DNA of 44,650 bases from Myxococcus sp. Lineage in GTDB: Bacteria > Myxococcota > Myxococcia > Myxococcales > Myxococcaceae. Both the position numbers and the translations under genes were made by a program. Location of the stretch: contig JACSRE010000158.1 of the NCBI GenBank assembly GCA_014879945.1, positions 1 to 44,650 on the forward strand. The letters run 5' to 3'. Below the pieces are notes generated by a model that was not told the DNA's origin, ran no database searches, and saw only the letters and a list, made by a program, of their open reading frames with translations. This document shows, piece after piece, positions 490 to 10,424 of the stretch (positions are counted from its first letter, which is position 1; every line of letters begins with the position of its first letter).

Positions 490-747
490 TCAGAGTTCGC
501 CGACCGACTGCATCACCTTGTCTTTGAACTCTTCGCGGATCTTGATGAGGTTCGAGTGCTTCACCTTCTTGCGGGCTTCGACGTACTCGCCGTCAGGCTT
601 GGTGAGGTCGCCCTCGATCGTGTCGTCTTCGAAGCTGTACTCGGTCTTCTTGTTGTACGTGACGTTGCCGTCGCCCTTCTTGTCCTGAGCGAACGAAGAC
701 GTCGCCAGCAGCGCGGCTGCGATGACGACCCACAGGTGCTTCGACAT
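490..747 (-). CDS. Small secreted protein of Glt-like cluster (85 aa)
   Basis: Starts at ATG 747 with AGGAGG five bases upstream; a longer in-frame reading to 870 has no such support. Residues 1-20 are a signal peptide ending SSFAQ. The mature part of about 65 residues is charged, with an IEGDL motif at 44-48 and an LIKIREEF motif at 67-74, followed by SV near the C-terminus. The same pattern appears in the neighbouring 82-residue protein, so the two look like diverged paralogues. It sits between a GltE-like TPR lipoprotein and an FHA gene, the place where gltF is found in Myxococcus, but I cannot confirm that name. Role unknown; a small periplasmic or outer-membrane part of an envelope machine is a reasonable guess. 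Confidence 0.8.
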   Translation of the reverse strand: MSKHLWVVIAAALLATSSFAQDKKGDGNVTYNKKTEYSFEDDTIEGDLTKPDGEYVEARKKVKHSNLIKIREEFKDKVMQSVGEL

Positions 748-876
748 GGAACCTCCTGACACCCTTTGCAGCGCAGACCCTACCACTCTCGAGGTGTCCG
801 CAAACCTCCTGCATCCGTTTCTTGCATCGCACACAGTGAGAGCAGGTGTGACCACCACCGTGGGCACCATGGACCT

Positions 877-1125
877 TCACCGCATGGCATCGACCGAGCG
901 GTGGAGCTCGTTGGCGAACGAGCCGCGCAGCTGAATCAGGCGCTTGAAGCGGGGGCGCTCGGGCAGCACGGTGAACTCGACGACCGGGGCCTCGACGGAG
1001 CCGCTGACCGAACTCCCGGTGCTGAAGTCGACGTGCTGCACCGGCACTTTGGGCGGGGCCCGGTCGGCCTGGGCCAGCGCGGAGGAGGCAGCGAAACAGA
1101 CGACCAACACGAAGGCCAGGCGCAT
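877..1125 (-). CDS. Small secreted protein of Glt-like cluster, paralogue of its neighbour (82 aa)
   Basis: ATG at 1125, with AAAGGAA about eight bases before it. Residues 1-18 form a signal peptide (MRLAFVLVVC...SSALA). The mature protein has VSGSV at 40-44 and RLIQLRGSF at 62-70, then SV at 77-78. These line up with IEGDL, NLIKIREEF and SV of the 85-residue protein encoded next, at similar spacing. No Cys remains after signal cleavage. It lies 71 bases after the GltE-like gene and 129 bases before the next small gene, all on one strand. No enzymatic motif is visible. Function unknown. Confidence 0.7.
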   Translation of the reverse strand: MRLAFVLVVCFAASSALAQADRAPPKVPVQHVDFSTGSSVSGSVEAPVVEFTVLPERPRFKRLIQLRGSFANELHRSVDAMR

Positions 1126-1196: not shown

Positions 1197-2708
1197 TCAG
1201 AGCCCGTCGCTCGGCTCGTCGGACGCGGGCTTCTTCGGCTCTTCTTTCCGGGGCGCTTCCTTCTTCGCCTCGGGGGCCGGCGCGGGCCTGGCGGGCGGCG
1301 GCGGCGCGGCCTTCGGCGCCTCCTCCTTCTTGGGCTCCGCTTTGCCGTCGGCGGGCTTCGCCTCGTCCTTGAGCGCGTCGGCGGCGGCCTTGCCCTTCGC
1401 CGCGTCTTGCTGCTTCTTGAACTCCTCTTCCTTCTGCTTGCGCTCTTCTTCCTTGGCGGCGGCCTCGGCCTTCTTCATCTCTTCTTCCATCTTCTTGGCT
1501 TCTTCTTCCGCCTTCTTCATCTCTTCGCGGGTCGCGATGGCGGCCTCTTGCTCCTTGATGAGCTCGAAGACCTGGTGGTTCGCGTTGACCGAGGTCTCAC
1601 CGCCCGAGAGCTGAACGAACTGCTTGTAGTAGGTCAGCGCCTTCTCGGGGTCGCCCTTGAGGCCGATGATGATGCCGCGGTTCAGGTAGAGCGCGGGGAG
1701 GTTGGGGTTGAGCTTCTGGGCCGCGTCGTACGCCTGGAGCGCCTTGTCGATCTGCCCCATGCCCTTGTAGGCGACGCCGAGGTTCACCAGCGCCTCGGCG
1801 TTGTTCCCGTTGGCCTGGAGGATGCGGCGCACGTGCTCCTCGGCGCTGCCGTAGTCCTCTTGATCGAAGGCCATCTTGGCGAGCTGGTAGTGCGCGGGCA
1901 GGAAGTCGTTGCGGGCCTCCACCGCGCGCTTGAACTGCACGCGGGCCTTCACCGGCTCCTTCTCGGCGAGGTTGAGCAACCCGAGCGTGTAGTAGATCTC
2001 GGGGTCGTTCTCTTCGATCTTGGTCGCGCGCAGCGCGATGAGCCGGGCCAACGAGTACTGCTTCTGCTCGTAGTGCACCTGCATCATCGTCTTGTAGGCC
2101 TGCAGCGTGCGCGGGTCGCGGAAGAGCGCCTCCTTGGCCAGCTCGAGGGCGCGGCCGCTCTCACCACGGCGTCGGTGGATCTCGGCCAGCCGCGCGCGGC
2201 TCCCGGCGTCGTCGGGGTACGTCGCGAGGATGTTCTCGTAGATGGCGACGGCGCCCTTCTCGTCGCCCTGGTTCTGGGCGATCACCGCGAGGTTCTCGGC
2301 GGCCTGCCGGAGGGTGGGCTTCTTCGCGAGCGCCTCTTTGTAGAAGGCCACCGCGTCCTTCGTCTTGCCCTGGCGCTCGGCGATGACGCCCAGGTTGTAG
2401 GTGGCCTCGGCGAGGTTGTCGTCGGCGTCGGCCGCGCTACGGAACTTCTTCTCGAGGGTGGCCCAGTCGTACTGGCCCGTCTTCTTCTGGGTCTCGAAGG
2501 CCTTCACAGCGTCTTCGAACATCAGCTTCGCCTTGCTCGAGATCTGCGGCGCGTCGTCGGCGCGCGCGGCGCCGCCTCCAGAGCGCACCTTCGGGCCGTC
2601 GACGCGAACGTCGGCGCCGGCCTCGGTCGTCTTGCAGGCGGGGGCCGCCAGGGCGACCAACGCGGCGACGGCGCCGCGGACCATCAACTTCGTCAAGGGG
2701 GCGCTCAC
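1197..2708 (-). CDS. gltE: TPR lipoprotein, GltE/AglT-like
   Basis: 503 residues from a GTG whose GTGA overlaps the stop of the upstream TPR gene, so the two are translationally coupled. The N-terminus has a hydrophobic run ending LAAPAC, with Cys25 as a probable lipid-attachment residue, although Pro in the lipobox is unusual. Residues about 65-370 hold a series of TPR units with the typical spacing (YNLGVIAERQGKTKDAVAFY, LVNLGVAYKGMGQIDKALQAY). Residues about 390-445 are a Lys/Glu/Ala-rich coiled coil, followed by a Pro/Ala/Lys-rich tail. In Myxococcus AglT (GltE) is an outer-membrane TPR lipoprotein of the gliding apparatus; NfsE is its paralogue. Gene order supports this group, but gliding versus Nfs assignment is open. 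Confidence 0.75.
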   Translation of the reverse strand: MSAPLTKLMVRGAVAALVALAAPACKTTEAGADVRVDGPKVRSGGGAARADDAPQISSKAKLMFEDAVKAFETQKKTGQYDWATLEKKFRSAADADDNLAEATYNLGVIAERQGKTKDAVAFYKEALAKKPTLRQAAENLAVIAQNQGDEKGAVAIYENILATYPDDAGSRARLAEIHRRRGESGRALELAKEALFRDPRTLQAYKTMMQVHYEQKQYSLARLIALRATKIEENDPEIYYTLGLLNLAEKEPVKARVQFKRAVEARNDFLPAHYQLAKMAFDQEDYGSAEEHVRRILQANGNNAEALVNLGVAYKGMGQIDKALQAYDAAQKLNPNLPALYLNRGIIIGLKGDPEKALTYYKQFVQLSGGETSVNANHQVFELIKEQEAAIATREEMKKAEEEAKKMEEEMKKAEAAAKEEERKQKEEEFKKQQDAAKGKAAADALKDEAKPADGKAEPKKEEAPKAAPPPPARPAPAPEAKKEAPRKEEPKKPASDEPSDGL

Positions 2709-5700
2709 AGCGTGTCCTCCGGCTCGTCGTCGTTCCTGGGCTTCGTGGGCGCGGGCGCCGCGGGCTTGTTGGTGGCGGTCGTCGCCCTGGGCTTCTCGGC
2801 CTTCGGCTCAGGCTTCGGCTCTGACCTGGGCGGGGGGAGCGTGTCGGGGTCTTCACCGCGGGGCCGCGCGTCGACCACGTTCTTCCCAACGCCCGAGGTG
2901 TTGTTCTTCAGCTCGGCGGCGCTCTCGGCCGAGATGGTCGGAATGGGCTGAATCGAGGTGAGCAGCCCCTGCCCGATGGCGCTGAGCCTGGCGCCCTCTT
3001 CGGGCTTCAGCTCGAACGTCTCTTCGGCCATCTTGGGGAACTGCTCGGGCTTGTACCTGGTGCGCAGCAGCTCGAGCGCCTTGGCGGAGCACGGGTTGAA
3101 GACGTCGAGCTCCTGGCTCTTCTGCACGGTGGCCGCGAACGCCTCGGCCGCCTTCTCACGAATCGGCATCGCCTCCTGGTTGAACTGGGTCTTCACCTCG
3201 AACAGCAGCTCCTCGGGGATGCCCTTGGGCACTGGCGGGTTGGCGAGCGCCTCGGCGAACTGATCGTAGGCCAGGCCGATGCGGGCCAGCGCGCAGATGG
3301 CGGGGTCGGCCGACTTGAACTGCACCGTCTTGGTGTACGCCTTCTGAATGTCTTCCAGGCCCTTGGCCTTGGTCTTGATCGAGCCCTTCAGCTCTCCGAT
3401 GTTCTGGAGCGTCGTCCACTTGAGCTTGATGGCCGAGTAGCGCTTGAAGTCGTCTTCGTTCATCACGAACGAGGCGCGCGCGACGGCGTCGAGGGCCTGA
3501 ATGTCGAGCGCGTCCTTCTGCTTCTTGTTGAGCTTCTCGTAGTAGTCGAGCACCCGAATGAAGATCTTCCGCGCGCCGGTCGGGTTCTTCAGCTTCTCTT
3601 CGTAGATCGAGGCGATGCGCCCCTCGGCCCAGAGCAGTTTGCTGGGGTCCTTGATCTGGTCCTTCTCGTACTCCTCGTAGAGCTTCTGCGCCTTCGCCCA
3701 GAGGTTCATCTTCTCATGGAGGTCGATGATCGACTTGGTCACCGCCTCGGCGTCCTTCGACTTGGGCCACAGCTCGAGGTACTTCTCGCGGTTCTTCAGC
3801 GCCTGCTTGTACTGGCCGAGCCCGTCGCGGAAGACGCCGGCGTTGTAGAGCGCATCCTGAGCCTTCTGCTCCTCCCAGACCTGCTCGGCGGCCGGCGCGA
3901 CCTCTTTCTTGCCCCTGGGGGCGGCCTTCTTCGCCGGGCCCTTGCTCTTCTCGTAGTTGGCCGCGTACCGCTCGTAGTGATCGGCGGCGTCGTCGAAGTC
4001 GGCGACGGCCTCGTAGCCCTCGGCGAGCGCGTAGAGCGTCTTGGGCACGTACTGCGACTTCGGGTAGCGCTGAATGAGCTGCTTGCGCACCTCGATGGCG
4101 CGGTCGAGGGCCTTGGCGTTGAAGTAGTCGATCGACGCGTTGTAGAGCGCCTTGTCGGCCAGCTCGCTCTTGGGCCAGTCCTGCACGAAGGTCATGTAGG
4201 CGTCGGCGGCCTTGGCGTACTCGTTCTTCGCCTCGAGCTGGTTGATGAGCTTGAACGACGACTGCTCGATCAGCTTGGCGAGATCTTCACGGAACTTGCC
4301 GGTCGCGAGCTTCTCTTCGGCGTAGAACTTCTTGGCCCACTCGTTCACCTTCCCCCAGTCCTGGAGAATGTTGTACGAGTCGAGCACGAGGTTGGCGGCG
4401 ATCTCGCCCGCGCGGTCTCCGTTCTCGAACTTGTAGTCGGGGTGCTTGAGCGCGATGTCGGCGAAGCGCGAGACGGCTTCGTCGAGGTAGTTGTAGTCGT
4501 AGTAGATCTTCGCGGCCTTGTAGGCGATCTCGACCTTCTTCTCGCCCTTCTCCACGTACTTCAGGTACCGCTCGCACGAGTCGAGCAGCGCCTGCTTCAC
4601 CGGAGGGATGGCCGCCTTCTTCGAGGGGTCGCCGCCGCCCGAGGCCGACTTGCCGCCGTCGGCCGTCGCCATCTCTTTGAGGAGCGAGTCCCACGCGAGG
4701 ATCGAGTTGTAGGCGGCGTTGTTGAGCCACTTGCCGGGCTTGCCGGGGCTGCCCTCGACCTTCTTCTCGAGGCGGTCGATGTCGGTGAGGGTGACGCGCG
4801 TGTACTCCTCGGCCGCGCGCTGGTACTTGCTCAGGTTGTCGTTGAGGAGCTCGGCCCAGAAGAAGCGCAGATCGTACGCCTTGGGGCTCTCGGGGAAGAG
4901 CGTGAGGTAGTCGGCGTAGACCTCGTTGGCGAAGCCGAAGGTCTCTTCGTCGCGGGTCTTCTTGGCTTCGTTGTGCCAGTTGACCGCGAGGTTCGAGATG
5001 GTGCGCTCCGAAAGCTCGCGCGCCTCGTCGAGGGCCTTCTTGTCTTTGTCGTTCATCGACGGGTTGCCCTTGAGCACGTCGTCCATGATCTTCACGAGGC
5101 GGCGCACCTGGGTGACGGTCTGGCGCTTGTTGCCGGCGCGCATGACGCAGTCGACGATCTTCCCCTGGAAGCCGGGGGCGTCGGGCGCGGTGGGGCGCTC
5201 CTTGATCAGCATGTCGAAGGTGACGGCGGCTTCGCGGTCTTTGCCGTCTTCGTAATAGAGGTTCGCGAGCTGCTTCATCATCAGGCGCAGGTCGTCGGCC
5301 TTGTTGGCGAGCTTGCTGAAGCGGTCCTTCGCCTCGGTGGGCGTGCCACCGCCGCGCGAGTAGGCGCGCACGTAGTCGTTGCGGGCTTCCTTCACCAGGC
5401 CCTGGCGGCGCGACTTGCCCTTGCCCTCGACCTCTTCGGCGCCCTGCATCTCGGCGTAGAGGACCACCGTCTTGAACTGGTCCATGGCCTTGTCGTAGTC
5501 GGCCATGTTGAAGTGACACCAACCCTGCTTGTAGAGCGCGTAGCCGTAGACCTTGTTGTCGGGGTACTTCGCGGCGTTCTTGTAGTTCTCGAGGGCCTTC
5601 TCGAGCTGGTCGCGCTTGCCCTTTGAGCCGTTGAAGTAGAACTCGGCGACGGCCAGGTAGGCGTCGGGCAGGTACTTCGACTTCTGGTACTTCTCGATGA

Positions 5701-6319
5701 GGCGCTTGTACGAGGCGAGCGCCTTCTTCTGGTTCTTCTCGTCCGACGAGTCCATCAGGTTGAGGCCGAGGAAGTAGAGGACCTCGTCGGTGCGCTCGTA
5801 GTTTTTGTACTCCTGGACGATGAGGTAGTACTTCTCGACGGCGAGGTCGGCGAACTCCTTCGACTTGGCCATCAGCTCGGCCTTCTCGGCCTCGGCGCGC
5901 TGAACGCCCGCGTCGTCTTTGGCGTTCATCGCCTTGATCTTGTCGTCGTCCTTGCGGTTGGCCTCGAAGAAGAAGTGCTTCGACTCTTCCCAGTAGAGCT
6001 CGCCGAGGCGGAACAGCAGGCCCGGCTTCTCTTTCTTGTCGGTCGACAGCTCGATGATCTTCGACAGGTCGGTGATCTGCTCACGCCGCTTCGAGGCGAC
6101 CTGCAGCTCCACGTCGAGCCGGAAGGTGTCGTACGAGAGGGTCGGCGCCTCTTCTTCCTTCTTCTTCTTGCGCGTGATGTCGCCGGCGAGCGACTTGTCG
6201 GGCGCGATCGACGTTTCCTTCTTCTTCAGCTCGGCATCGACGGCCTCTTTCTTCGCAGCTGGGGCCTGGGCGAGCGCGAACGAGGAGACGAGGAAGAGAC
6301 TCGTAATCAGTGGACGCAT
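2705..6319 (-). CDS. gltD: Large periplasmic TPR protein, GltD/AgmU-like
   Basis: 1,204 residues from ATG 6319. Residues 1-18 are a signal peptide (MRPLITSLFLVSSFALAQ); a longer in-frame reading to 6400 would bury it. Nearly the whole chain is TPR-like helical repeats, visible as repeated ALYxxG/A, Yxxxx-YPKS and KALxxYKxxxxKYPxS units, ending in a Pro/Lys-rich tail (about 1150-1204). Myxococcus AgmU (GltD) is a TPR protein of about 1,200 residues required for adventurous gliding, and NfsD is its sporulation paralogue; size, signal peptide and the coupled TPR lipoprotein agree with that family. It is probably a scaffold binding other machine parts in the periplasm. It is the first gene of the cluster in transcription order, with a candidate promoter about 100 bases upstream. 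Confidence 0.75.
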   Translation of the reverse strand: MRPLITSLFLVSSFALAQAPAAKKEAVDAELKKKETSIAPDKSLAGDITRKKKKEEEAPTLSYDTFRLDVELQVASKRREQITDLSKIIELSTDKKEKPGLLFRLGELYWEESKHFFFEANRKDDDKIKAMNAKDDAGVQRAEAEKAELMAKSKEFADLAVEKYYLIVQEYKNYERTDEVLYFLGLNLMDSSDEKNQKKALASYKRLIEKYQKSKYLPDAYLAVAEFYFNGSKGKRDQLEKALENYKNAAKYPDNKVYGYALYKQGWCHFNMADYDKAMDQFKTVVLYAEMQGAEEVEGKGKSRRQGLVKEARNDYVRAYSRGGGTPTEAKDRFSKLANKADDLRLMMKQLANLYYEDGKDREAAVTFDMLIKERPTAPDAPGFQGKIVDCVMRAGNKRQTVTQVRRLVKIMDDVLKGNPSMNDKDKKALDEARELSERTISNLAVNWHNEAKKTRDEETFGFANEVYADYLTLFPESPKAYDLRFFWAELLNDNLSKYQRAAEEYTRVTLTDIDRLEKKVEGSPGKPGKWLNNAAYNSILAWDSLLKEMATADGGKSASGGGDPSKKAAIPPVKQALLDSCERYLKYVEKGEKKVEIAYKAAKIYYDYNYLDEAVSRFADIALKHPDYKFENGDRAGEIAANLVLDSYNILQDWGKVNEWAKKFYAEEKLATGKFREDLAKLIEQSSFKLINQLEAKNEYAKAADAYMTFVQDWPKSELADKALYNASIDYFNAKALDRAIEVRKQLIQRYPKSQYVPKTLYALAEGYEAVADFDDAADHYERYAANYEKSKGPAKKAAPRGKKEVAPAAEQVWEEQKAQDALYNAGVFRDGLGQYKQALKNREKYLELWPKSKDAEAVTKSIIDLHEKMNLWAKAQKLYEEYEKDQIKDPSKLLWAEGRIASIYEEKLKNPTGARKIFIRVLDYYEKLNKKQKDALDIQALDAVARASFVMNEDDFKRYSAIKLKWTTLQNIGELKGSIKTKAKGLEDIQKAYTKTVQFKSADPAICALARIGLAYDQFAEALANPPVPKGIPEELLFEVKTQFNQEAMPIREKAAEAFAATVQKSQELDVFNPCSAKALELLRTRYKPEQFPKMAEETFELKPEEGARLSAIGQGLLTSIQPIPTISAESAAELKNNTSGVGKNVVDARPRGEDPDTLPPPRSEPKPEPKAEKPRATTATNKPAAPAPTKPRNDDEPEDTL

Positions 6320-6372
6320 GGGACTGTTCCCGAAACAAGGGCGAGTACGCGAGGGCATCGTGGCGTTACGAA

Positions 6373-6390
6373 CGAGGCTACCGAGCCTCG
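6373..6390 (-). terminator. Hairpin between the envelope operon and the gltD-like gene
   Basis: A perfect 7-bp stem, CGAGGCT paired with AGCCTCG around a 4-base loop CGGT. It lies 70 bases after the stop of the 6461-7291 gene and 54 bases before the gltD-like start. It may terminate the upstream operon. If the promoter at 6418-6447 is real, the hairpin instead lies in the gltD leader. No clear U tract follows (TTCGT), so termination is uncertain. Confidence 0.4.
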
Positions 6391-6417
6391 ACTCCTTCAA
6401 CCCTTTGAGAGGCGCGG

Positions 6418-6460: not shown

Positions 6461-7291
6461 CTAACGGCCAAGCAGCTCGAGCAGCGCCCGGGCCTTGCCC
6501 ACCTTGCGAACGTCGTCGCCCACCTGCACCACCAGCTCGATCGACGGGTCTCGCACGATCAGCGACTTGAGCAGCCACGGCTCGACATCGGGGTTCACCT
6601 CGACGCGGGTGCCGATGCCGCAGGGAAACACCCCGTCGCTGACGGCCAGGAGCATGGCCACGTGCAGCTCGGCAGCCGGCTCGGCTGGGTCTCGTGAGGC
6701 GCAGTCGCGGGGCAACAAGAACCCCGGCGAGACGACGACGGCCTTTCGGCCGGGGAGCGCCTTGAACTGGCTCCATTGGAGCAGGTCGACCGCGCCCGGC
6801 GGCGACCACCGCGTGAAGGATGGCCGCTGGGCCACCAGCAGCGCGCGCCGGGCGTCGTCGAGCTCGCCGCGGACCTCGAGCGCGAGGGGCCTGCGGCCGC
6901 GAAACCGCGACAACGGCGCGCTCAGCGCCTCGTCGAGCGGCAACCACAGGCCCGCGGCGGGTGCGCGGCTGAGCGCTTTGCCGTCGACGGCAGTGAGCGG
7001 CGGCCGCAGCTGCACCCACGCGGCGCCGAACAGCCTGAGCGTCTCGAGGGTGGACTCGCGCAGCGTGTTGGAGCGGGTGGTGAGCCACAAGGTGACCTCG
7101 GGCCTGGCGAGCGCGCGCAGCACGTCGGGCTCGAGCTCTTCGCTCGCGACGACGTGCACTCGCACCGAGCGCCCGACGACGAGGTCGGGGGTCTGTGCCG
7201 GCAGCGGGCGCTGGGCCTGCGCCGTGGCCACCGACGCCAGGAGCGCCGCGACGAGGCTACTGGTTCTTCTCAATCCACTTCGCGAACGCAT
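6461..7291 (-). CDS. Secreted protein of unknown function (276 aa)
   Basis: Begins at ATG 7291, overlapping the end of the FecR-domain gene by 35 bases; a TTG at residue 7 is an alternative start. Residues 1-26 look like a signal peptide (LVAALLASVATAQA). The rest is mixed alpha/beta with no motif I recognise. It contains RVHVVASEELEPDVLRAL, an LWLTTRSNTLRESTLETLRLF segment, and two Cys (in PRDCAS and FPCGIG) that could form a disulfide. It is the last gene of a five-gene operon of exported proteins. I do not assign a function. Confidence 0.7.
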   Translation of the reverse strand: MRSRSGLRRTSSLVAALLASVATAQAQRPLPAQTPDLVVGRSVRVHVVASEELEPDVLRALARPEVTLWLTTRSNTLRESTLETLRLFGAAWVQLRPPLTAVDGKALSRAPAAGLWLPLDEALSAPLSRFRGRRPLALEVRGELDDARRALLVAQRPSFTRWSPPGAVDLLQWSQFKALPGRKAVVVSPGFLLPRDCASRDPAEPAAELHVAMLLAVSDGVFPCGIGTRVEVNPDVEPWLLKSLIVRDPSIELVVQVGDDVRKVGKARALLELLGR

Positions 7292-7982
7292 CGCGCCTGG
7301 CCGCCTCTTCGAACTGCGCCACGTCCCAGAGGTCGACGCCCACCGCGATCTGCTGGTTCTGCTGCAGGTCGACGAACTTCTTCTCCCACTCGTCAGCGCT
7401 CACCTCGGTGGGGCCGGCGACCTGCACGCGGGGGCCCTTCTTCGGCGGCGGCGCGGCGCCGGTCGAGGCCTTCGCCACCATCGCCGACGGCCTGATGTTC
7501 ACGGTGCCTTCGACGATGCGCACGATCGACGCCTTGCGCGCCCTGGGGGGCTTCGAGGCGGTCACCATCTTGTCGGCGTCGATGCGGAAGATGGTGCCGC
7601 GCACGCCAGCCACCGCGCGCTCGGTCGACACCTCGTAGCCGCCGCCGCCGAGGGCCTTCTTCACCTTCGTCCACAGGCTGCCCGACTGGAGCAGCGCCTT
7701 GAAGCCCTTGCGCTCCTGGCCCTCGAACTCGGCCTCGGTGATCTCGAGCTTCGACGCGGGCGCCAGCATGATGATGCTCTCGTCGGTGAGCTCGAGCTTG
7801 AGGTTGCCGCTCTTGACCTCGATGGTGTCGCCCAGCTCGATCGCCGAGTCCTTCGCGAGCGCGACGGCCTGCCCTCCCCTGGGCGTGCGGGTGGCGGCGC
7901 CCTCCAGCAGGGCGACCTTGCCGACCTCGGCCGAGGCGACCACCGCGCACAGCAACGCTGCCAGACTGAAAAGGCGCTTCAT
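7257..7982 (-). CDS. FecR-domain exported protein
   Basis: 241 residues from ATG 7982, with GGAGGAAG just upstream; the ATGA overlaps the stop of the preceding lipoprotein gene. Residues 1-18 are a signal peptide ending VVASA. Residues about 20-165 carry the FecR fold: VGKVALLEGAATRTPRGG, an IELGDTIEVKSGNLKLEL strand pair, SIIMLAPASKLEI, then TERAVAGVRGTIFRID and a further VEGTVNIR. This domain is found in periplasmic regulators and in many surface proteins. No sigma factor or TonB receptor gene lies nearby, so classical iron-dicitrate signalling is unlikely here. The C-terminal 75 residues are basic and helical. Confidence 0.85.
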   Translation of the reverse strand: MKRLFSLAALLCAVVASAEVGKVALLEGAATRTPRGGQAVALAKDSAIELGDTIEVKSGNLKLELTDESIIMLAPASKLEITEAEFEGQERKGFKALLQSGSLWTKVKKALGGGGYEVSTERAVAGVRGTIFRIDADKMVTASKPPRARKASIVRIVEGTVNIRPSAMVAKASTGAAPPPKKGPRVQVAGPTEVSADEWEKKFVDLQQNQQIAVGVDLWDVAQFEEAARRDAFAKWIEKNQ

Positions 7983-8323
7983 GGACTTCCTCCGTTGGGC
8001 AGCAACGTCACGTTCATCACGACGCGGGTTTGATCCGCGGCCAGCCAGCTCTCCCACGTCACGAACCCGGCCTTCTTCACTTCGACCCGTCGCGGCCGCT
8101 CGCCGACCTTCAGCGCGCGGGGCTCGCCGTTGAAGTCACTGCAGAGCCCCTGAGAGACCCCGTCGAGCGCCACCTCGGCGTCGACCGGCTGGCACTTGAG
8201 CACCAGCTCGCCTGCGCCCGAGACCCGGTAGGGCCGCAGCCGTGTCTCGGTGACCCTGGGCATCGAGGTCAGGCCCGAGGGGGCCGCGGCACACCCCGCG
8301 AGGAGCAGCAGACTCCACTTCAC
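7979..8323 (-). CDS. Small lipoprotein with PEGA-like domain
   Basis: 114 residues. The GTG at 8323 forms a GTGA overlap with the upstream gene, and its own stop forms an ATGA overlap with the FecR gene, so all three are coupled. The signal LLLLAGC is a good lipobox with Cys11 as the lipidated residue. The mature part (about 40-108) resembles a PEGA beta-sandwich: LVLKCQPVDAEVALDGVSQG, then RRVEVKKAGFVTWE and a final VVMNVTLLP strand. PEGA domains are common in surface proteins and kinase sensor regions. It is probably an envelope structural or assembly part of the operon. Confidence 0.75.
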   Translation of the reverse strand: MKWSLLLLAGCAAAPSGLTSMPRVTETRLRPYRVSGAGELVLKCQPVDAEVALDGVSQGLCSDFNGEPRALKVGERPRRVEVKKAGFVTWESWLAADQTRVVMNVTLLPNGGSP

Positions 8324-9548: not shown

Positions 9549-10424
9549 TCAGTTGAAGACGATGACGACCTTGCCCTGCGCAAGGAACGGGGGGTTCATC
9601 GAGACGAGCTTCTTCGCCTCGTCTTGTGAGAGGAGCACGTCGGCGCCGTTGGCCTTGGCGGCCTTCATCACCACCGGCTTGTCTCCCGCCTTGAGGCTCT
9701 TCTTCGCCTCTTCGAGCGACTGCACGTAGGCGGCGACGCCGGTCGTCTTGCGGGCGTCGGCCGAGAGCGAGTCGACGGTGTAGAGGGGCTTGCCGGTCTC
9801 GTCGAGGATGCGCGGGAGCAGCGCCGGCATCAGCTTGAGCCCACGCGCGTCGATCACCAGACCCGTGCCACCCGCCTCGGAGGGCTTCGCCGCGGCCTCG
9901 GGGGCCTTCGCCACGGCCTCGAGCGCCTTGATGGGCTCGGAGGCCTTCTCGGCGGGCTTGTCGCTGGGCTTCTTCTCGGGCGTCGCCGGCACCGCGAGCT
10001 GCTGGGTGGCGTCGGGGTCGAGGATGTCGGTCAGCATCGCGACCGGCACCTCGATGTCGATCTCGACGCCGTTGTCCGAGAAGTACCGCTTGTTGGTGAT
10101 CTTGTAGCCGCGGATGACGCCCTCGACGCGCGCCTTCACCTCGTCGGCCTTCATCACGTCGTCCATCTTGCGGGTGGCGTCGACCTGCACGCCCTTGATC
10201 TGCTCGAGCATCTTGCGAAACGCGTCGAGCTGCGCGGCGCGCTCGGCCCCCAGGCGGGCCTGGGCGGGGCTCGAGGCCTTCATGTCGGGGGCCCCGGCGC
10301 CGGTCGCGCGCACCACCTGGCCCTCCCAGTTCATGCCCTGCGGCGGGCCCTTCGCGTCTTTCTGGCTTTCGGCGGCCGCGAACACGGACACGGCCAGCGC
10401 CACTGCCAACACCAATCGTTTCAC
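9549..10424 (-). CDS. LPP20-family (FlgP-like) exported protein
   Basis: 291 residues from GTG 10424, with a GGGGG run upstream. A signal peptide (VLAVALAVSVFAAAES) lacks a lipobox Cys. Residues about 33-135 carry the LPP20 pattern: VVRATGAGAP, ARLGAERAAQLDAFRKMLEQIKG, VEGVIRGYKITNKRYF and VEIDIEVPVAML. A Lys/Pro/Ala-rich linker (about 145-190) leads to a second domain with TGLVIDARGLKLMPALLPRI and a final GKVVIVFN strand. LPP20 proteins include FlgP, an outer-membrane ring component in Vibrio and Campylobacter. It sits eight bases before a FlgT-like gene, mirroring the FlgP/FlgT partnership, but without other flagellar genes. First gene of the operon. Confidence 0.75.
   Translation of the reverse strand: MKRLVLAVALAVSVFAAAESQKDAKGPPQGMNWEGQVVRATGAGAPDMKASSPAQARLGAERAAQLDAFRKMLEQIKGVQVDATRKMDDVMKADEVKARVEGVIRGYKITNKRYFSDNGVEIDIEVPVAMLTDILDPDATQQLAVPATPEKKPSDKPAEKASEPIKALEAVAKAPEAAAKPSEAGGTGLVIDARGLKLMPALLPRILDETGKPLYTVDSLSADARKTTGVAAYVQSLEEAKKSLKAGDKPVVMKAAKANGADVLLSQDEAKKLVSMNPPFLAQGKVVIVFN

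Follow-up and report, generated by a model that had tools for sequence, protein, structure and literature searches.

A candidate second GltF-type subunit encoded beside gltF in a myxobacterial gliding operon

A myxobacterial gliding operon carries, between gltE and gltF, a small gene whose 82-residue product (F2) appears to be an old paralogue of the gliding subunit GltF, encoded in the same operon and probably sent to the same compartment. Judging from sequence, we put the probability that the Glt machine has F2 as a second periplasmic subunit of GltF type at roughly 0.68. The window, the entire 44,650-nucleotide stretch of DNA analysed, is one contig (C363) of a myxobacterial assembly of 7.72 Mb in 448 contigs. 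What is new here is the F2 subfamily, the recurrent doubling of GltF-type genes and the F segments fused into larger proteins; the 85-residue protein encoded next to F2 is already known. The available portions of the literature on GltF, CglF, GltG and GltD make no mention that we could find of a second GltF beside gltF.

The genes run gltD-gltE-F2-gltF-gltG on the minus strand, an order best explained as the myxobacterial gliding operon. The gltD-like gene (2705–6400) encodes a protein with TPR matches and holds the same position relative to gltE as M. xanthus gltD; its frame spans 1231 residues, with the true start probably internal. The upstream neighbour of F2 is gltE (1197–2708), whose TPR lipoprotein product matches NF033758 (gliding_GltE) with 570 bits (cutoff 225). 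F2 itself occupies 877–1125 and gltF occupies 490–747. The minus strand of the spacer between them (748–876) has AGGAGG directly 5′ of the gltF ATG and no terminator-like site. An alternative, longer frame of 126 residues starting at 870 was judged less likely for the 85-residue protein. At the contig end, gltG is cut to its N-terminal part (3–461), which contains an FHA domain (E 1.6e-12) and scores 192 bits over the first 132 positions of NF033760 (gliding_GltG); the full-length GltG of a close relative (L008) reaches 917 bits against a cutoff of 650. GltJ is encoded elsewhere in the same genome with a score over its family cutoff, so the Glt gliding machine is probably present in this organism. 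Further along the same strand, the window also encodes a FecR-domain protein (7257–8057) and, scoring slightly below the Pfam cutoff, an LPP20-like lipoprotein (9549–10424).

The 85-residue protein matches NCBIfam NF033764 (gliding_CglF) with 130.6 bits against a curated cutoff of 90, and it is the sole over-cutoff match to this model in the whole genome. Its gene is flanked by the NF033758 and NF033760 matches, with F2 intervening on the gltE side. By family membership and location it is GltF (CglF), a small, exported component of the Agl-Glt gliding machine. According to the available part of PMC3169522, M. xanthus gltF (MXAN_4868) lies between gltE and gltG and encodes an 89-residue protein that has a signal peptide but no recognised domain; the protein is required for gliding and, as GltF-mCherry, localises to focal adhesion clusters. 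CglF has been equated with GltF and described as periplasmic and inner-membrane (PMC4488436, in the part available), while the accessible text of PMC3325183 groups CglE and CglF, which have type I signals, with outer-membrane-associated proteins that are probably transferred between cells. The window protein shares the family, the gltE-gltG location, the size and the signal-like N-terminus of its M. xanthus counterpart; M. xanthus, however, has a single such gene at this site (PMC3169522, Table 1, as available), whereas the window has two. The initial annotation had suggested that both small proteins might be unrecognised structural subunits. This does not hold for the 85-residue protein, which belongs to the family of a proven M. 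xanthus subunit, but may hold for the 82-residue one. The sole PDB match of GltF, to 3zq6 (E 0.003), looks like chance.

The 82- and 85-residue proteins are, as judged by profile comparison, true relatives: GltF and an unannotated, fast-evolving second copy. The shared N-terminus and motifs at matching spacing that had been described at the outset are borne out. The 85-residue protein carries I44-x-G46-x-L48, L67-I68-x-x-R71-x-x-F74 and S81-V82, while the 82-residue protein carries V40-x-G42-x-V44, L63-I64-x-x-R67-x-x-F70 and S77-V78; the distances from G to L (21) and from F to S (7) are identical, and both N-terminal helices are signal-like, with the signal peptides assessed by eye from sequence. 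Alignment of the 82-residue family (10 rows) with the 85-residue family (20 rows) by hhalign gives a probability of 98.8 and an E value of 1.3e-16 over 79 columns. F2 retains the G, P, R, F and S positions that it shares with GltF, and its middle segment has lost the charged stretch DDTIEGDLTKPDGEYVEAR that is nearly invariant in GltF. F2 is homologous to GltF by profile and has the same size and operon, but it matches no Pfam or NCBIfam model (NF033764 included, at E 0.1), and a whole-genome scan with NF033764 at 0.001 does not find it. The annotation is hereby corrected for a protein that escapes current family models. AlphaFold places an N-terminal helix at residues 3–14 of F2 and a C-terminal helix at residues 61–81, the latter spanning the shared LIxxRxxF...SV segment, both at low confidence (pLDDT 61.5).

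Selection was compared in ten pairs among five relatives for both genes. F2 has dN/dS values of 0.07–0.51 and gltF of 0.05–0.16, while the corresponding dN values are 0.026–0.382 and 0.005–0.060. Since all dN/dS values lie below 1 and dN is higher for F2, F2 is constrained by purifying selection, yet changes faster than GltF. Both genes are conserved in relatives, a check that the initial annotation had proposed. The faster evolution, together with the absence of F2 from the gltE-gltF spacer in one genome of the same genus (G090) and from most of the family, would also fit a duplicate being lost, or a lineage gene that is dispensable and plays no part in gliding. We regard this as unlikely: each of the ten dN/dS values points to constraint, the F2 frame is intact in the 12 genomes counted as having the gene, the core motif is retained, and doublets recur in other families. 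A recent tandem copy of gltF, on the other hand, does not fit the trees, in which the F2 rows split from GltF and from the related groups F3 and F4, with support of 97/97 in the first tree and 50/91 in the second (53 columns, long branches); F2 sequences this short and divergent do not yield a firm tree, and the row X_L150b is placed differently in the two. The proposal of a duplicated, diverged small component is therefore supported by profiles, position and conservation, with the qualification that F2 looks like an old paralogue of GltF and not a recent copy.

To survey the distribution of F2, 195 genomes of the phylum were scanned with a model made from 12 F2 rows. Twelve genomes score at least 83 bits and all others at most 68.2 bits, with the model built from those same sequences. 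The window's family, with 96 genomes, contains all 12, and no genome outside it lies above the gap; this count is set by the score gap, so that very diverged F2 genes could escape it. F2 fills the gltE-gltF spacer in seven of the 12 (G000, G091, G092, G093, G095, G053 and G088), and in three others (G010, G011 and G012) F2-gltF-gltG follows a different gene instead of gltE. In the remaining two (G050 and G090), the F2-type gene is found apart from the glt genes, so its link to glt is not absolute; in G090, gltF has no F2 before it. Another genome, G094, has gltF at a contig end. In loci of Corallococcus, Archangium and Hyalangium, gltF is present once and the spacer is short. Most of the 96 family genomes, including those of many-genome genera, contain no F2 above the score gap, indicating that the machine can generally do without F2. 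The lone F2-type gene of G050 (contig C100, L088:5091–5474) sits beside genes resembling, from their translations, pilR/pilS, pilMNO and prepilin peptidase.

These placements bear on whether F2 serves another envelope machine, such as a type IV pilus or a further system of DEFG type, and merely shares the gltF promoter. The pilR/pilS- and pilMNO-like neighbours in G050, the unrelated genes around the G090 copy and the occurrence of F-type proteins in further D-E-F-G operons of these genomes would all suit such a role. In 10 of the 12 genomes, however, the F2-type gene adjoins gltF, and it stays with gltF-gltG in the three where gltE is not directly upstream, which makes a role in another machine quite improbable. 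Least probable by far is that the F2-GltF resemblance reflects chance or convergence through a signal peptide and a low-complexity motif, which is refuted as far as sequence allows: although both proteins are short and BLASTP finds no match between them at E ≤ 100, their mature parts alone align with a score of 57.2 and an E value of 5.8e-12 where none of 200 column shuffles does as well (maximum 21.2), restricting the 82-residue side to its five closest rows still gives an E value of 1.2e-6 (0 of 200 shuffles as good), and the second small frames of two intermediate loci, L017 and L019, are matched by each protein as a single-sequence query.

F-type proteins extend beyond these two groups. 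The window's genome encodes three more, on contigs C102, C143 and C295, followed by a GltG-like gene in C102 and by an FHA-like gene in C143, while C295 carries a full D-E-F-G operon. Like GltF, the small exported proteins of such operons are encoded just 5′ of a GltG-like FHA/TonB-like protein; unlike GltF, they fall under the CglF cutoff and into separate tree groups (F3 and F4). Over all fetched loci we counted 152 distinct small F-type proteins, after merging identical F sequences and setting aside eight frames classed as fused or internal; of these eight, at least three (L141, L142 and L144) are not fusions but small proteins with a long N-terminus. Where 1 kb or more of downstream sequence is available, a GltG-type gene lies 3′ of the F-type gene in 132 of 144 cases; where the same length is available upstream, a GltE-type gene lies 5′ in 110 of 128. 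Because F-type queries were used to retrieve the loci, these counts describe neighbourhood rather than frequency. GltF, a little-studied subunit, is thereby placed beside GltG almost everywhere.

Among the 91 distinct E-F-G operons in the fetched loci, the window excluded, 12 contain two F-type genes, a frequency biased by the fetching of loci for F2-like scores. Six of these doublets are in the window's family and consist of F2 and then gltF. The other six, one each in G155, G151, G183, G182, G099 and G100, have the canonical F first and a changed copy second (E-F-F′-G), and G100 has a second F-F′-G at a contig start (L212). Of 76 scanned genomes, 7 show two same-strand F-type matches no more than about 1 kb apart, at 8 places in all; six stretches were fetched because two adjacent matches had been seen there. 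The second tree comprised 57 rows and 53 columns and excluded four near-identical GltF rows, three fused-segment rows and the C295-type row. In it, the second copies of L211 and L212 group with their own neighbours (100/99 each). An AU test rejects a single clade of all second copies and F2, and with it one common origin, at p 1.1e-5 on this short alignment. With 53 columns and long branches, the remaining second copies have no firm placement, and some rows fall in different places in the two trees. GltF-type doubling thus seems, from these trees, to have arisen separately more than once in the phylum. In one of the seven genomes with close matches, G165, the tandem F-type pair (G165:C279, L147:4464–5372) has no glt genes beside it and adjoins a radical-SAM-like gene that has repeated sequence on both sides.

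F segments also occur within longer chains. A 988-residue protein (L146:612–3575, G049:C617) consists of VIT and VWA domains followed by an F segment (residues 819–870, 65.5 bits to NF033764) and a GltG/AgmX-type C-terminal domain (residues 896–984, 100 bits to NF033768). Fusion of two proteins in one chain is a classical hint that their separate versions meet, and the joining of an F segment to a GltG-type domain in L146 offers a direct interaction for testing. An F segment is also present in the N-terminal part of three distinct YfbK-like VWA proteins whose starts resemble those of lipoproteins (L049:4923–6794, L053:4686–6788 and L115:1050–2876); the segments of L049 and L053 score 67.6 and 65.0 bits with NF033764, and that of L115 scores 45 bits with a custom F model. 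The start of the L116 sequence is the same as that of L053.

The adjacency of gltF and gltG touches on the question of how force is handed over from the inner-membrane gliding motor to the outer membrane. In the published model, as given in the available part of PMC5349195, the TonBC domains that GltG and GltJ carry are driven by proton flow through AglRQS against partners in the outer membrane, for which GltAB are named only as possible candidates. If F2 is indeed a second GltF-type subunit, it would be produced from the gltF operon and exported to the compartment of GltF, where the predicted C-terminal helix carrying the shared LIxxRxxF...SV segment could attach it to the periplasmic/outer-membrane side of the complex. 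Its altered middle segment may contact a different or variable partner. GltF-type proteins would then act at the periplasmic handover between the TonBC domains and their outer-membrane partners, with F2 as a second such subunit. From gene adjacency and the L146 fusion, we infer that F-type proteins contact GltG.

A bolder version of this contact draws on the Tol/TonB systems. GltG and GltJ are TolA/TonB-like, and their TonBC domain is thought to reach outer-membrane partners (PMC5349195, in the part available); in L146, the F segment is fused just before the TonB-like C-terminal domain. The F-type segment could be a portable docking module grasped by the TonB-like C-terminal domain of GltG-class proteins, the Glt counterpart of the TonB box, with GltF as the standard outer-membrane-side adaptor, F2 and the doubled copies as a second adaptor, and the F-bearing VWA proteins as cargo or adhesins on the same motor. 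We consider this extension doubtful. Docking was examined with a natural GltF-GltG read-through frame (L051), folded as is by AlphaFold. The F part is not packed on GltG in this prediction and appears disordered (pLDDT 24–33 over approximately residues 1–66), while the GltG domains reach a pLDDT of about 75–95. Since the fold used 36 mostly unpaired rows, with an alignment slip at the C-terminus of F and the last part of the F helix missing, docking on GltG lacks support here but is not disproved.

In three Corallococcus loci (L050, L051 and L052, about 5001–5135), a second gltF copy is frame-shifted and continues into gltG. Weak F-like stretches occur in two frames of about 660 residues, scoring 27.5 bits in L151 (560–2548) and 12.9 bits in L152 (1298–3283), the latter of which is matched by DUF4139/DUF4140.
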